A stretch of 23,769 nt of DNA from a bacterium. Lineage in GTDB: Bacteria > B130-G9. Below, one piece after another: positions 15,038 through 23,223 of this stretch. The notes under the pieces are model-generated. The model was not told where the DNA came from. It worked only from the letters and a program-made list of their open reading frames with translations, and searched no databases. Position 1 is the stretch's first letter; every line of letters begins with the position of its first letter. The DNA lies in the NCBI GenBank assembly GCA_021160245.1, contig JAGHCW010000047.1:1-23769 (forward strand), read 5' to 3'. The position numbers and the translations under genes are program-made.

Positions 15038-16168
15038 ATGAGCTTTGGCAGCAGACTGGCATTGGTGGTCGTTATCACAATAGCGGCCATACAATCGGGG
15101 CGAGCGGCGCGTTTGCAGCCAATGATTACTATGTTGATGGGACGCATGGCGACGACAGCAATGACGGTTACAGCTGGGCGCCGGCATGTTTATCTACTAC
15201 TGCTCGCCGAATATCTTGGACTGCACGGTCCGCAATAATCATGCGAACTGTATGGGTGGTGGCATATTCTGTTTCTTTGAAAGCGCTCCAATGTTCCGGG
15301 GCAACACAATTGTCACCAACACAGCGGAGTACGGCGGCGGAGTCAACGTGCATTTCAGCAGCAGCCCAACCCTCCAGGACAACATCATCAAGAACAACAC
15401 AGCCGATCACGGCGGAGGGCTATGCTGCGATTACTTCAGTTCCCCAACAATCCAGGGCAACTCAATAACGGGCAAGTCTGCCTCGTCTGCATCGGGATTC
15501 GGTGGCGGATTCTCTGTAATTACAGTAGCTCGCCGGAGATCATCGATAACACGATTGCCGACAATTCTGCGGAGGACGCCGGCGACGGCATAGCTTGCCA
15601 CGAGTCTTCAGCGACGATGGAAGGCTGCACGCTCTCGGGTAACGCGGCCGGCTTTAGCGATTATTACTCCAGCAGAGGCGGGGGCATTTACTGCCGTAGC
15701 AGTTCTCCGAGGTTAACCAACTGCACGATCACTGGCAACTTCGCGGGTCTCCCTGGCGGCGCCATCAAATGCGCCGACACATCCAGCGCTGCGAGAATCT
15801 TGAACTCGATTCTGTGGGGAGATATCCCGGACAAGATTCGTGGGAACAAAGTTATAGTCACCTACTCCGACGTTGAGGGCGGCTGGTCGGGAACAGGCAA
15901 CAAGGTTTTCCGCAGCATCTCGGCAGATGGCTCCGACGTTATCTTGATAACTCCGAGGCTTATCCCCGCCCGAGGCACGCCAGCCTCTGGCGCCTCATAC
16001 TTCTGGGACATGGATGTTGAGCGAGGCGTCAACTATCATTATTGGCTGGTTGACATCGAGACGAGCGGCAAGTGGACGGCGCATGGGCCGGCATCTGCGC
16101 GCCTGCCGCTTGGACAGCCTGAAAAGGCCGTCCTGCACCTGATAGCGGCAGACGTTATGATCGAGTAG
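15038..16168 (+). pseudogene. Broken secreted right-handed beta-helix protein
   Basis: A GGGGGG-containing SD and an ATG at 15038 begin a signal peptide (SRLALVVVITIAA). A frameshift near 15095 moves the mature start AFAANDYYVDGTHGDDSNDG to another frame. A second break near 15180 enters MFIYYCSPNILDC, and a third near 15510 moves to NYSSSPEIIDNTIADNSAED. The recurring SSPTLxxNxIxxNxAxxGGG units are parallel beta-helix rungs. The end, GTPASGASYFWDMDVERGVNYHYWLVD, matches the Fn3-like tail of the C25 gene, but the segment between helix and tail (about 15905) is shortened by deletion. Paralogue of the two loci downstream. The longest open frame runs 15422-16168. Confidence 0.8.
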
Positions 16169-16355: not shown

Positions 16356-16539
16356 GCGGATAGTTCCTGCGCAATTCCCCTCTCTTTTTGCCACTTGGTC
16401 GGCAAGTTCGGTTGAGTATTGTCGCGTGGTAATTGACTGCGAGCCGAAAGTGAGGTGAATGACAGATAGAGAGATGCTGATCTACAAGAATCTCATTGAT
16501 ATGCCTTCGGGCAAACACATCCAAAACAGGAGGGAAGCG

Positions 16540-19500
16540 TTGAGACTTTACCAGAAATTGAGTGTGGCGCTTATTATCGTTGTTGCGATAATGGTAACAG
16601 GCGCCATGGCAACGGAGACCATTTCATTTGAGGTGAAGAGTACTGATTATCAAGTTTCAAAGGATTCGCGCGGGGGCGATGTCATCCGAATGGATGGCTT
16701 CAAGACCAACGCCGCGCCCGGGGCGCCGTTGCTGCCTCGCAAGGTACTTGACGTGGCGCTACCACCAAGCGTTAACTGGGACAGCGTAGTCGTCAGAGCG
16801 CAGGATGCTGTCGAAGTCCCAATAGATGGGCTCTTCAACATCGCGCCAGCTGGCCCCGACGCAACCTGGCCGCTCGATAGTGAGATTCTCGTCGATTGGG
16901 CAGACGCTGGCCAGATAGTTGATGGCAAGGACGTTTCGATATATGGAGTGGATGCGAACCATCCGCGGACATGCGCCTCGAATAACACTTTCTCGCAGAT
17001 GCGGAAGTGGAAGTTTGTGCGTGTGGAGTTCACACCATTTGCCATCAATCCCGTAACCGGACAGCTCACGTTGACCGAGAGCGCTCGAATTGCTATCCAG
17101 TTCGAGACTGACGGTGAGCCGGAGCCGCCGGCTCTCCTTCGCGACACGGTGATGGACGATAAAGCCAAGAGGCGGTTCATCAACTTCGATGAGGCGGCAA
17201 GCTGGTACCAGTTAGCTGACACGAGCGCCAAGAAGAACGGCAAGGACCCGGTCTATGATTATGTGATTATCACGACGAACGCTATTGAGGCGGGCAGCGC
17301 GAAGTTGTCCGATTTTGTGACGCACAAGACCGCGCTCGGTTTCTCCGTTCTTGTGATAACAGAGGACGAGTTCGGGAGCATGACCGGTCAGACTCCTAAT
17401 GGGATTTCGGAGAAGATTCGGCAGTGGTTGATTGAGAATTACGCTAGTTGCGAGATCAAGTTCGTCTTATTCATCGGTGATCCCGATCCAGACGCGGGCG
17501 GCGTGCCGATGAAGATGTGTTGGCCGAGGCGCAACTACAGTTCCTACAAAGAGGCGCCGACGGATTATTTCTACGCCGATCTTACGGGAGACTGGGATCT
17601 GGATGGAGACACGTATTTCGGCGAGTATTCTCACGATCAAGGCACTGGCGGCATCGATCTAACGGCCGAGGTCTATGTTGGCCGCATACCCGTCTATGAC
17701 GAGGACTATGGCCAGCTTGACGACATCCTTCAGAAGACAATGGATTACCAGGCTGCATCCGGCGACCTATCCTGGCGCAAGAAGATTCTTCTACCAGAGA
17801 GCTTTTCGGACTCTTCAACGGATGGGGCCTACCTCGGTGAGTGCATCATGGACGACTTCGGCACCTCTTATGGTCTTTCGCCATACAAGCTCTATCAGCA
17901 GGGCGCCTGCACCGATGACTCGTCTTTTTCGAGCGACGAGGAGCTCGTTAGCAATGCGACATGGAACCACTGGAAGGCCCCGAACCCGTACGGCCTCGTA
18001 ACCTGGTGGGCGCATGGCAACACGACGATCGCCGCAATCGGATATAGCCCCAACAACTGCGGGACGCTGCTTGCGACATCCAATTGCCCCACGCTGGACG
18101 ACACTAAGCCGGCGATTGTCTATCAGTGCAGCTGCCTCAACGCATATCCTGAATCCACAAGCAACCTCTCATACGCGCTGCTTAAGTCCGGGGCAATTTC
18201 TGCCGTAGGCGCCTCGCGGGTGTCTTGGTATTCACCCGGTTGGACAGCTCCCACGGGCAGCCTACTCAACAACGAGCTCGGCTATGAGATGGACAGGAAT
18301 ATGGCCGTCCATGCAGATACCGTCGGCGAGGCGCTGGCGACAGGAAAGGCCTATCTGACTGTCGGCAGCCCCGGAAGGCTAATGAATGCCTTCGTAATGA
18401 ATATGTATGGCGATCCACAGGTTCATTACAACGACAAGCAGCAGGGAACTGACTACTGCGTTGACGGCAATTCAGGTAGCGACACCAACGGCGGCTCAAG
18501 TTGGACAGACGCCTTCAAGACTATCCAGCACGCTATAGATGAGTGCGGCACGGGCGCCGCAGGATCTCCGGACACCGTGCATGTTGCGGCCTATACATAT
18601 TACGAGAATATCGAGCTCGATGATCACATCAGGCTTTGGGGCGGCTATCCTGCCGGTGGAGGCGCTCGCAATCCCGCGCTCAATGAGACGATCATCGACG
18701 GCTCAAACAGCGGGATTGTAGTCCACATTTTTGCAGATGAAGGCGTGACCGTTGATGGTTTCACAATTCAGAATGGTTATAGCGCGGATGGCGCTGGACT
18801 CCAAATATTTGAATGTGATCCCATGATCTCGAATAACAGGATTCTGAGCAACCATGCTTGGGACCCAAGCAACGGACGTGGTGGCGGCATCTACTGCGGC
18901 TATGCCTCGCCAACGCTTCAGAACAACATCATCATGAACAATGTCGCTGAGACGCGCGGAGGTGGGATATATTCGTACCGCAGTTGGCCGACGATCATAA
19001 ATTGCCTGGTCGCCCATAATGACGCCGATGTGGAATGTGGTGGGATATACATGAGGGCGATAGACGCTCAGTATGAGTGCGCACCCGAGATCATTAACTG
19101 CACCATAGCCGACAATAACGCGCCAGAGGGAACCAGCGGAGCCGGCGTCTATGCCTTCGGCTCTCATTGCAACCCAGTCCTACTCAACTCGATCGTGTGG
19201 CACAATGGCCATATCGATAGTAGTTCATGGGACGACGTTTACGGTGTTGCTGACAGCGATGCTTCGTATTGCGACATAAGCACAGGTAGTTGGACCGGCG
19301 CCGGGATGCTCAATACCGATCCAATCTTTGTGCCTATAAATGAGACACCATTTCAGTACTACCTTGTTCATACAGGCCCTCAAGCAGTGGATTCTCCTTG
19401 TCTGGACGCTGGAGAGGGAACCGTGACACAGTATGGCATGCATGGGACCACAACCTGCACGGATGGCAGTGCGGACGGCGATGACGATGCGAGCGGCCAA

Positions 19501-19917
19501 ACAGGCCCGATTGACATGGGCTACCACTATCCCCAAGGCTACGACGGAAATGAAGACACCTACATCGACTTGGTGTCGTTCGAGGCGCGGCCGGGTAATG
19601 CGTCGCTTATTCTGACTTGGGAGACGGGCGCCGAGATAAGAAACGCCGGCTTCGTTCTTTTCAGGACAATTGCAGGCGAAAGCGACTATATCCAGTTGAG
19701 TGGCCTGATTGGCGCAGAAGGCACACCAGCCTCCGGCGCCTCGTACTTGTTCATCGACAACGACGCTGAGGCGGGAATCAGCTACGATTACTGGCTCGTT
19801 GACGTCGAGACGACTGGCAAGTGGACAGCCCACGGCCCAGCATCGGCGAGGCTGCCAATGGGCCTCAAATTGTTTGAACTGCCAACTGTCAACTACCAAC
19901 TGCCAACTACCCGATAA
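16540..19917 (+). CDS. Secreted gingipain-like C25 peptidase with beta-helix and Fn3-like tail
   Basis: An exported cysteine peptidase of 1125 residues. The signal peptide is MRLYQKLSVALIIVVAIMVTGAMA. A propeptide-like region follows (PGAPLLPRKVLDVALPPS). The C25 domain runs from about residue 238 (YDYVIITTNAIEAG) to 630, with catalytic His492 in TWWAHGN and Cys530 or Cys532 in VYQCSCLNAYPE. From about 637 a right-handed beta-helix begins (VDGNSGSDTNGGSSWTDAFK; rungs such as GGGIYCGYASPTLQNN). Residues 1008-1106 are an Fn3-like module. The start is TTG at 16540 because AGGAGGG lies 6 bases upstream and the signal peptide starts cleanly there; an ATG at 16459 would add 27 polar residues. The extreme C-terminus is encoded by a heptamer repeat. 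Substrate unknown; a role in surface or extracellular protein processing is likely. Confidence 0.87.
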   Translation: MRLYQKLSVALIIVVAIMVTGAMATETISFEVKSTDYQVSKDSRGGDVIRMDGFKTNAAPGAPLLPRKVLDVALPPSVNWDSVVVRAQDAVEVPIDGLFNIAPAGPDATWPLDSEILVDWADAGQIVDGKDVSIYGVDANHPRTCASNNTFSQMRKWKFVRVEFTPFAINPVTGQLTLTESARIAIQFETDGEPEPPALLRDTVMDDKAKRRFINFDEAASWYQLADTSAKKNGKDPVYDYVIITTNAIEAGSAKLSDFVTHKTALGFSVLVITEDEFGSMTGQTPNGISEKIRQWLIENYASCEIKFVLFIGDPDPDAGGVPMKMCWPRRNYSSYKEAPTDYFYADLTGDWDLDGDTYFGEYSHDQGTGGIDLTAEVYVGRIPVYDEDYGQLDDILQKTMDYQAASGDLSWRKKILLPESFSDSSTDGAYLGECIMDDFGTSYGLSPYKLYQQGACTDDSSFSSDEELVSNATWNHWKAPNPYGLVTWWAHGNTTIAAIGYSPNNCGTLLATSNCPTLDDTKPAIVYQCSCLNAYPESTSNLSYALLKSGAISAVGASRVSWYSPGWTAPTGSLLNNELGYEMDRNMAVHADTVGEALATGKAYLTVGSPGRLMNAFVMNMYGDPQVHYNDKQQGTDYCVDGNSGSDTNGGSSWTDAFKTIQHAIDECGTGAAGSPDTVHVAAYTYYENIELDDHIRLWGGYPAGGGARNPALNETIIDGSNSGIVVHIFADEGVTVDGFTIQNGYSADGAGLQIFECDPMISNNRILSNHAWDPSNGRGGGIYCGYASPTLQNNIIMNNVAETRGGGIYSYRSWPTIINCLVAHNDADVECGGIYMRAIDAQYECAPEIINCTIADNNAPEGTSGAGVYAFGSHCNPVLLNSIVWHNGHIDSSSWDDVYGVADSDASYCDISTGSWTGAGMLNTDPIFVPINETPFQYYLVHTGPQAVDSPCLDAGEGTVTQYGMHGTTTCTDGSADGDDDASGQTGPIDMGYHYPQGYDGNEDTYIDLVSFEARPGNASLILTWETGAEIRNAGFVLFRTIAGESDYIQLSGLIGAEGTPASGASYLFIDNDAEAGISYDYWLVDVETTGKWTAHGPASARLPMGLKLFELPTVNYQLPTTR
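19877..19911 (+). repeat. Five tandem heptamers, consensus AACTRCC
   Basis: AACTGCC, AACTGTC, AACTACC, AACTGCC, AACTACC run head to tail. They encode the last dozen codons of the C25 gene and end just before its TAA, 10 bases upstream of the peptide gene's SD. Heptamer arrays can change length by slippage and would alter the peptidase C-terminus and reading frame. Confidence 0.8.
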
Positions 19918-19930
19918 GAAGGAGATAGTA

Positions 19931-20053
19931 ATGAAGACGAATAGAGTCTATGAGGCGCCAGTAGTAATAACGCTTGACAGCGAGGCGATACTTGCGACGT
20001 TGGGTCCGAGCTTGTCGTGCACGGGCTTTGGCGGCTCAGCAAGCGGCTGCTAA
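19931..20053 (+). CDS. 40-residue Gly/Ser/Cys-tailed peptide, candidate RiPP-like precursor
   Basis: ATG at 19931 with AAGGAG about 8 bases upstream, starting 13 bases after the C25 stop, so probably the same transcript. The peptide has a charged N-terminus with a YxxP motif (RVYEAPVVITLD), a helical middle (SEAILATL), then the tail GPSLSCTGFGGSASGC with two Cys. YxxP plus a short Gly/Ser/Cys-rich end resembles the leader-core layout of lasso and other peptide natural-product precursors. No radical-SAM enzyme, cyclase, RRE protein or ABC exporter is in the window. A role as substrate or partner of the C25 peptidase is a guess. That it is translated is well supported; its function is not. Confidence 0.62.
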   Translation: MKTNRVYEAPVVITLDSEAILATLGPSLSCTGFGGSASGC

Positions 20054-20341: not shown

Positions 20342-23051
20342 ATGTGTATTCGCAAAGCCATAATCACGATGCTCGCAATTATGGTAACGGGCGTCTCTGC
20401 CGGTGACTACTACGTTGCGACTGATGGCAGCGACACCACGGGCGACGGATCGTCGGGAAATCCCTGGCAGACCATTTCCTACGCTTTGTCGCATGTTAGC
20501 GGCAGTTCCCGATCCACATAGCGGCGGGCACGTATGCGGCCTCAACTAACGGGGAGTCCTATCCCCTCAATATGGAGAGCTACGTCTCGCTCTCGGGCGA
20601 GGACGAGGCGAATACAATCCTCGATGCCAAGTACGCGGCGGACCACGTCATCTACTGCCTCAGCGACAACAACTTGACAATCGAAGACCTCACGATTCAA
20701 GGCGGACATGCGAACAGCGGCTCAGCCCCGAATAACTCGGGCGGCGGCATCTTCTGCGACGACAGTTCTCCGACGCTGAGCAACTGTACGATCAGCGGCA
20801 ACACAGCGGATTACTACCTGGCGGCATCTACTGTGGAGGAGGCTGCCATCCAACTATTCTGAACTCGATCCTCTGGGGTGATGACCCGGACGAGATTGCG
20901 GGATACACAACCGACGTGACGGTGACATAGTCCGACGTTGAGGGGGGCTGGTCGGGAACCGGCAACATCAATGAGGATCCGCTATTTGTCTCTGGTCCGT
21001 ATGGGGATTATTATCTCTCGCATGCGGACTTCGACGCTGCGGATTCCCCTTGCATTGACCGCGGTGACGGAGCGGCGGGCGATTACGGCCTTGAGGACAG
21101 GACAACGTGCAGGGATGGTCGTGAGGATGGAGATGACGACAGCAACGGGAGCACGGGCGCAATTGATATGGGCTTTCATTACCCAGGCTTTACCGACTGT
21201 TACGTTGACTTGACGAATGGGAACGACAGCAATAGCGGGTTTGATTGGGACAACGCCTTCGCCACGATAGGAAAGGTCATTGCCGTATCTCGGGGCAGCG
21301 CCATACACATAGCCGCCGGAACGTATGCCGAGAATATCGAGCTGGACAATAATCTGACACTGTTGGGCGGCTATCCGGCTGGTGGCGGCGATCGCGCCCC
21401 GAGCGCGAATAAGACCATCATCGACGGCGGCGCTGTTGACACTGTCGTCATGATCATGGGAAAGACCGATGTGATGATCGACGGCTTCACGATTCGGAAT
21501 GGGATCGCGACCTACGGAGGCGGCGTCTATGGCGAGGCCAGCTCCGCAGAGTTAAGCAATTGCATAGTCACGGACCATACTGCCGAGGTTGGTGGGGGCA
21601 TGTTCTTCTACGACGGGAGCTCAGTTCACCTCCTGAATTGCCTGATTGCTCATAATAGTGCCAATTATGGCGCATCAGCTCTCTGCTATTGGGATTGCGC
21701 CTTGGATATGGTCAGCTGCAGGGTCGCGGATAACACCGCTGACTGGGTGGGAGGCATCTGCTGCGACGGGGCGTCTGAGCTGGCTCCGCTTAACTCGATA
21801 CTGTTTGGTAACTCGGGCCACCAGGTTTACGGATTTGCAATGAACAACACATTCGACATCACGTATTCCTGCGTCGAGGGGGCTATTCGGGGACTGGGAA
21901 CATCGATAATGATCCGGGATTTGTGCCGACGTCCGACCCGCCATTCGACTATTATCTCGCACACACTGGCGCACAGGCCGGGGATTCCCCGTGCCTCGAC
22001 GCCGGCTACGGCGATGTTGCGGACTAGGGCCTCGAAGGGAGAACGACTTGTACTGACGGGCGCGAAGACGGGCGCCGAGATAGACTGCGCGGGCTTCGCG
22101 CTCTTCCGAGAGGTCGCCGGCACGCGGGACTATCAGCTCAGCGATCTAATCCCAGCCCAGGGCACATCATCCGACGACGCCTCGTACAGCCTCGTGGACT
22201 GGGACGTTGAGAGAGGCGTGACATATAACTACTGGCTCGTAGATGTCGAGACGAGCGGCGAGTTGGCGGCAGAGCTGGCGACCGTGCTTCCCAAAAGCGA
22301 CAAGCGGCTTGTGGTTTACTCGCTCAATGAGCGATTCGAGATCGACTCGACAAGCGTAGGCTATCTGGGGATTCACCCCTTCTTTGTTTTCTTGACTGGC
22401 AGGGACCTTACAATGGCGCTATTTCGGGATTTCTTTTTGGATGGAGAGTGGCTCATCGAACCTGATTGGGAACATATTTACGTAGTTGAACGAGGATGTG
22501 ACGCATTTCATCTCCGAAGCGACATCAAGCTCGCGCTTATTGAGAAGATGGCCGGCTACAGGGCGGAGGCGCCGACGGAGCTTCACTTCTCCCCTTCCAC
22601 TACGCCTCAGTCAGGAGGCGGGCGTCTGGCCGCCTGTGGAGTGGGCCCCGATGGCATCTGTATTGAGTTGAGGGAACTGATGCTCGATCCCATCCTATAT
22701 GACCGCGTGCGGGTAAGGTTCCGTCAGCCTCTTGACCGTCCAGGAAGCTCGATCGTCCTCATGTGGTTTGGGTCAAATGCGGAGGACACTCCATTGGGAA
22801 GCCAGCAAATCAGTCTTTCTGGTGAGCAATTGGTCTTCAATCTTCGCGTCGAGCCGGAGTGGTTGACCGCCAGCAGCATCAGAACATTGCGGTTGTATCT
22901 CGGAAGCGTTAGCCAAAGCGAGGCTCTTCAGCTCATCAGCATTGACCGCGAGCCATTCGTTCTTTCAGCCTCCAGTGCCAAGCCTTTGCTGCCCCTGGCG
23001 ATTGACGCCAGTAGCCTCCGCCGGCGCGGCGCGTTGAAGACCGCCGATTAG
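20342..23051 (+). pseudogene. Broken secreted beta-helix protein with unfamiliar C-terminal segment
   Basis: GGGGAGA and an ATG at 20342 give a signal peptide (MLAIMVTGVSA) and GDYYVATDGSD. A frameshift near 20510 moves to IHIAAGTYAAS; another near 20820 moves to GGIYCGGGCHPTILNSILWGDD. TAG at 20928 replaces the Tyr of the conserved TYSDVEGGW. The frame then stays open from 20931 to 23051, but a one-base loss near 21888 puts GYSGTGNIDNDPGFVPTS out of frame. That frame meets a second TAG (in VAD-stop-GLEGRTTC) before the main frame resumes at AEIDCAGFALFRE. Two beta-helix blocks and one Fn3-like module are visible. From about 22300 a beta-rich segment of about 250 residues has no counterpart in the paralogues and may be the 3' end of another gene. 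Longest intact ORF: 21168-23051. Confidence 0.78.
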
Positions 23052-23094
23052 ATTGAATTATGCCAATCCGTAGAATGCAGTCCCGACGGTCGAA

Positions 23095-23223
23095 CGTCAG
23101 TGACGACTTGCCCGAGCCCGACAGGCCCGTGATGACCACGAGCTTGTCTCTGGGAATCGAGACGTCGATGTTCTTGAGATTGTGCTCCCGTGCGCCTTTT
23201 AAGAATATGTTGTCGTGCTCCAT
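23095..23223 (-). pseudogene. uvrA: N-terminal fragment of UvrA
   Basis: About 43 codons of the UvrA start: [20 protein letters not shown], then Walker [10 protein letters not shown] and LTFD, after which the expected TxYAEGQRRYVESLS is absent and unrelated codons follow. An AGGAAG SD is intact upstream. UvrA is the DNA-damage sensor ATPase of nucleotide excision repair, about 940 residues. This copy cannot work. The break at about 23095 marks a deletion, rearrangement or assembly join between the beta-helix locus and the tag region. Confidence 0.8.

Follow-up and report, generated by a model that had tools for sequence, protein, structure and literature searches.

The stretch of DNA analysed here (the window, 23,769 nt) carries, directly behind a gene for a C25 peptidase of secreted type that includes a C25 propeptide, a very short open reading frame with the layout of a leader and a core, and this raises the question of whether it is a genuine gene and what kind of peptide it would produce. 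A gene for a peptide of 40 residues would be skipped by annotation. The ORF lies at 19931-20053 on the + strand, opens with an ATG at 19931, closes with a TAA at 20051-20053 and encodes MKTNRVYEAPVVITLDSEAILATLGPSLSCTGFGGSASGC. The original prediction had described it as a tiny ORF with a strong Shine-Dalgarno sequence 13 nt behind the peptidase ORF (stop codon TAA at 19915-19917), and both the coordinates and the Shine-Dalgarno sequence proved to be exact. The features of the window are listed below.

15422-16168, + strand: remnant of an upstream cargo gene, with a partial FnIII-like domain (15887-16105).
16459-19917, + strand: cargo protein of 1152 aa with a C25 propeptide, a C25 peptidase (17260-18423), a beta-helix/DUF1565-like region and a C-terminal FnIII-like domain.
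19555-19854, + strand: the FnIII-like C-terminal domain common to the cargo proteins neighbouring the peptide (profile match, E 1.8e-43; adjacency; predicted beta-sandwich).
19877-19908, + strand: tandem repeat of the heptamer AACTGCC in the 3'-terminal part of the cargo gene, immediately ahead of the peptide gene (Tandem Repeats Finder).
19919-19924, + strand: Shine-Dalgarno sequence AAGGAG, 6 nt ahead of the ATG (read directly).
19931-20053, + strand: candidate precursor peptide gene, 40 aa (26 intact homologues in four genomes, invariant core, purifying selection).
19931-20002, + strand: proposed leader, residues 1-24.
19949-19966, + strand: YEAPVV, a YxxPxV motif of the kind that binds RREs in lasso leaders (alignments, spacing check, literature).
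20003-20050, + strand: proposed core GPSLSCTGFGGSASGC, residues 25-40.
20342-22271, + strand: second, downstream cargo gene disrupted by frame shifts and stop codons, with an FnIII-like remnant at 22041-22271 (ORF list, profile match).
22936-23223, - strand: ORF that starts like the UvrA N-terminus and diverges after ~45 residues, presumably a fragment, a frame shift or an assembly break.

The close relatives of the window in sequence are Candidatus Coatesbacteria. Intact copies of the peptide were found in all four Coatesbacteria genomes examined, 26 in total (five in the window's own genome, G000, six in G001, 13 in G002 and two in G003), along with a few additional truncated ones. The homologue search proposed in the original prediction thus returned a multi-copy family, and not the lack of conservation in relatives that the prediction had named as counting against a gene. 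In a search of 41 genomes the paralogue matches, mostly with E-values of 1e-20 to 1e-9, came from the own genome and the three genomes of the same family; weak matches in G024, G026, G031 and G034 were taken as chance. When 84,980 species genomes were scanned for the sequence pattern, only Coatesbacteria and one other contig were found to have the peptide. The peptide frame of the window is open further upstream, as a 114-aa ORF from a TTG at 19709, and the homologues start at the position of the short ATG and not at this TTG. The start codon is ATG in all intact copies but one (TTG), with a ribosome-binding site before nearly all of them.

The consensus of the 26 intact sequences is MxxxxTYEAPxVxTLDSxxIxSxLGPSLSCTGFGGSxSC, with a leader of the type YExPxVxT and an invariant core LGPSxSCTGFGGSxxC, so that the leader-core layout with YxxP and a two-Cys tail, first noted in the single peptide, extends across the family. 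Over 27 sequences (the 26 and a phage-borne copy described below), pS was 0.66 against a pN of 0.094 in the core, and 0.70 against 0.37 in the leader. This contrast indicates that the peptide frame is translated and that the core is under strong purifying selection, and conservation far beyond chance confirmed, on the evidence of sequence, that the ORF is a real gene. The YxxPxV/I leader motif is present in all copies but one, and its Tyr lies exactly 18 residues ahead of the Gly in LGPS in every member checked. Two Cys residues are found in nearly all cores; the first is replaced by Tyr in one intact copy and the C-terminal one is absent in another (L045:1277-1402 and L053:7453-7617). Three degenerate or truncated copies were also seen (L047:540-632, L054:4180-4260 and G002:C209:5619-5732), of which the first two retain the core end only. 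It should also be noted that no Pfam or NCBIfam model matches the Coatesbacteria peptides or those from outside the phylum.

The gene context of the copies argues against a specific pairing with the C25 peptidase. All 26 intact copies adjoin, on the same strand, a gene with an FnIII-like domain, which lies upstream of the peptide in 21 cases (19 within 200 bp and two at 468 and 521 bp) and downstream in the remaining five. This domain was found in all 28 neighbouring cargo proteins, whereas a C25 domain was present in just four, many of the others being of the beta-helix type. The suggestion that the peptide could be a partner of the peptidase was therefore rejected, as the C25 pairing seems mostly incidental. 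The FnIII-like domain spans ~100 residues with the pattern WETGxEIDNAGF...DIDTSGxxTxHGP and is predicted to form a six-stranded beta-sandwich (mean pLDDT 86). Its best matches among solved structures, with modest scores, were FnIII and Ig-like domains, including that of P. gingivalis peptidylarginine deiminase. The four Coatesbacteria genomes contain 14, 12, 21 and seven such domains, with 14 domains to five peptides in G000. Since the domains outnumber the peptides, the domain is not tied to the peptide everywhere and the cargo has no strict need of it. The heptamer AACTGCC recurs near the ends of other cargo genes (L042, L045 and L049).

The original prediction had seen no maturation enzyme, which holds for the window, and had proposed to look for RRE and radical SAM genes elsewhere in the genome. 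An operon with such genes was found in the same genome, on a different contig. Its order is PqqD (RRE), PqqD-radical SAM-SPASM, HPr-kinase-like, PorU-like C25 and S24/S26-like peptidase, with products of ~96, 462-464, ~403-419, 1075-1087 and 204-207 aa, respectively. G000 and G001 show the complete order; in G003 the contig reaches only as far as the C25 gene, with the first four genes present, and in G002 it is cut within the HprK-like gene. A free PqqD protein together with a radical SAM/SPASM enzyme that carries its own fused PqqD domain occurs once in each of the four genomes, one of which has a separate lasso-type PqqD in addition. As the operon adjoins no peptide copy in Coatesbacteria, its action on the peptide must be in trans.

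The nearest solved structures to the radical SAM enzyme were an anaerobic sulfatase maturase, the CteB-type radical SAM enzyme (5wgg), SkfB and PqqE, and its best NCBIfam matches included the mycofactocin rSAM, ScmE and StsB models, all below the curated cut-offs. The operon C25 protein was nearest to PorU (6za2) and the gingipains. Its scores against the PorU model, 257-284 bits, lie below the cut-off of 420 and it is thus called PorU-like only. Its catalytic dyad of His and Cys is conserved (GHG and CLNG motifs), as is the Walker A sequence GAARCGKT of the kinase-like protein, for which the HprK match was under the curated cut-off. No exporter for the peptide was detected in the operon, and a search for SprA, in which no positive control responded, gave no match in the four Coatesbacteria genomes. 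There were 71 radical SAM domain and 13 SPASM matches in G000, so that an enzyme other than that of the operon could act on the peptide. The 71 radical SAM matches, together with 16 C25 peptidase matches, look like an unusually high load for a genome of 3.4 Mb.

The association of peptide and maturase was further supported by genomes from outside the phylum. Orthologues of the maturase (E below 1e-50) were present in seven of 290 genomes, namely the four Coatesbacteria and G139, G189 and G044, the last two of which belong to the same phylum. In all three outside genomes a homologous peptide built on the same plan (PKYVQPEVITYTNDDVIKHLGPAQACSTTPCTVSPSGSGF, PTYIPPEVITYSSDEILEELGTVQACNSYDSSCGVLY... 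and PKYEAPKVITYHEDDILEELGPAQACTSPCPAP) lies inside the maturation operon (loci L151, L150 and L149), next to PqqD/RRE and PqqD-radical SAM-SPASM genes, and this gives good support to the idea, raised in the original prediction, of a RiPP-type precursor. The order in G044 is PqqD, peptide, cargo, radical SAM, HprK-like, PorU-like C25 and S24/S26-like; the contigs of G139 and G189 stop before the position of any C25 gene could be read. The cargo protein of each outside operon has the same FnIII-like domain (i-E 4e-36, 2e-26 and 1e-20), and in that of G139 (L149) a T9SS type A sorting domain was found in addition, scoring above its cut-off. The radical SAM motif CxxxCxxC and the SPASM motif C-x2-C-x5-C-x3-C are kept in all seven enzymes. 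When 386 genomes were searched with the peptide profile, E-values below 1e-7 were obtained in only seven, the same seven that have the maturase, with none outside; weak matches in G051, G153 and G158 were taken as chance. As the Coatesbacteria genomes are not independent of one another, this coincidence of seven out of seven amounts to about three independent lineages.

Recognition by RRE domains has been documented for YxxP (PMC12710340), the YxxPxL of lasso leaders occupies positions -17 to -12 (PMC10368454), and the SPASM motif C-x2-C-x5-C-x3-C correlates with peptide modification (PMC3023750). Taken with the YxxPxV leader and the conserved SPASM domain, these findings are best read as RRE guidance of a radical SAM enzyme that modifies the two-Cys core, and the operon-borne homologues, placed among modifying enzymes, a protease resembling sortases and an exported protein, suggest a modified cell-surface peptide. 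With the family, its selection, the operon, the co-occurrence and the neighbouring cargo all read directly from the genomes, it is considered likely that the Coatesbacteria gene encodes an RRE-guided, radical-SAM-modified precursor that is matured in trans and works with exported proteins on which the PorU-like enzyme acts. A selected leader-core gene, a leader motif and a tie to an RRE and an enzyme are together what would be expected of an RRE/radical SAM RiPP precursor, and all three are seen here; Cys in the core with a SPASM radical SAM enzyme bearing an RRE, likewise observed, is the combination expected of a sactipeptide or ranthipeptide.

The individual steps are held with differing confidence. 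The leader YExPxVxT...L would very probably be bound by the PqqD-type RRE domains, of which one is a free protein and the other part of the radical SAM/SPASM enzyme, both acting in trans from the one locus on another contig. Modification of the two-Cys core GPSLSCTGFGGSxxC by the operon radical SAM enzyme is probable too. The most likely chemistry would be a Cys-derived cross-link, for which the chances are considered even. The HPr-kinase-like protein may phosphorylate Ser or Thr of the core, a suggestion that is rather doubtful. The product would work outside the cytoplasm together with the exported FnIII-like-domain proteins, and the PorU-like C25 enzyme and the S24/S26-like peptidase may process the peptide, the cargo or both; for an action of the PorU-like enzyme the chances are as even as for the cross-link. 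A link between peptide and cargo is made plausible by the presence of this enzyme in the maturase operon and of FnIII cargo beside the peptide.

A copy of the peptide, MRYEPPLIITIDNAVLAAAIGPSISCTGFGGAVNCD, was also found on a phage contig (L067:9992-10102, + strand; also L096), where it overlaps the stop of a 951-aa gene. The contig, JAFDGR010000001.1, is binned as Deltaproteobacteria, is identical to an IMG/VR contig over the part compared, and has a GC content of 53.6% against 54.4% for the window. The copy is surrounded by an endolysin gene and other phage genes. PHROGs recognised just an endolysin, an SbcC-like protein and an unknown nearby, and a phage structural role was consequently set aside. 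In the stretches of the phage contigs that were read, neither a PqqD gene nor a radical SAM gene was noticed, and the phage thus carries the precursor gene apparently without the enzymes.

As phages do carry host signals, this single copy would also suit a secreted or intracellular signalling peptide, of which one invariant core is sensed by cell or phage while the cargo is merely co-regulated, and an invariant core behind a variable leader over 26 copies likewise fits a single common product. However, no sensor or receptor gene was linked to the peptide, its conserved partners being the RRE, radical SAM, kinase-like and C25 genes and the FnIII-domain cargo, and signalling is therefore thought improbable, even though it could coexist with modification. 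A small protein that stays unmodified and serves the exported proteins as chaperone, escort or structural subunit would account for the cargo adjoining every intact copy and for the lack of a maturase beside the peptide in Coatesbacteria; it would not explain the homologues within the radical SAM/PqqD operons of other lineages, the fixed Tyr-Gly spacing of the YxxP leader or the strict co-occurrence with the maturase, and it is regarded as very improbable. A lasso peptide precursor was rejected as barely credible on core sequence and operon content: although YxxPxV lies near the lasso position, a Gly stands at the proposed core start and PqqD and HPr-kinase-like genes accompany a YxxPxL/V leader in some lasso clusters as well, there is no Asp or Glu at core positions 7-9 (GPSxSCTGFGG) and no AsnB-like cyclase or B2 leader protease in the operon. 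A separate lasso-like cluster without a peptide of this family was seen in G001 (L139:1132-4815, + strand), with kinase-like, protease-like, PqqD and AsnB-like genes identified by eye, and may be contamination.

Within the reading of a modified precursor used with exported proteins, the part of PorU known from P. gingivalis, removal of the C-terminal domain of cargo and attachment of A-LPS (PMC8545088), suggests one further step. The modified peptide could be a surface anchor or tag that the PorU-like sortase joins to exported FnIII-domain proteins, much as PorU does with A-LPS in Bacteroidota, while phages would take up the precursor gene and depend on the maturase of their host. This is speculative and, on balance, unlikely; if the peptide is indeed joined to cargo, it would represent a new way of anchoring bacterial surface proteins. 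In the open-access literature searched, no description of such a system was found, nor any paper joining type IX secretion, radical SAM and a peptide. The small-gene family comes with a complete candidate pathway in Coatesbacteria, a phylum on which few papers turned up, and it ties radical SAM peptide modification to a PorU-type sortase and exported cargo.

Among known systems, the SynChlorMet and GeoRSP cassettes (NCBIfam) share the logic of PqqD with radical SAM/SPASM, with weak similarity to ScmD, ScmE and ScmF. The scores remained far below the equivalog cut-offs (31 of 100 bits for ScmD, 121 of 400 for ScmE and 89 of 400 for ScmF) and membership of the SynChlorMet cassette was rejected on that ground; to our knowledge, a C25 enzyme is not part of either cassette. 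Many dispersed precursor genes served by one trans-acting maturase locus are a property of the prochlorosins and other one-enzyme, many-substrate RiPPs, shared with Coatesbacteria. A diversity library of the prochlorosin type was nevertheless rejected, as the situation here is the opposite, with an invariant core and a varying leader. Type IX secretion has in common a C25 sortase-like enzyme and cargo with a conserved C-terminal Ig/FnIII-like domain; what sets the present case apart is the attached PqqD/radical SAM operon and peptide gene. The likeness to the RRE-dependent radical SAM/SPASM RiPPs (sactipeptides such as StsA/StsB, the ranthipeptides, and the PQQ and mycofactocin maturases) extends to the PqqD-type RRE, the SPASM C-x2-C-x5-C-x3-C motif and a short precursor with a leader and a Cys-containing core. 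Unlike in those systems, the precursors of Coatesbacteria are scattered over the genome beside exported proteins, and the operon adds HprK-like, PorU-like C25 and S24/S26-like genes.
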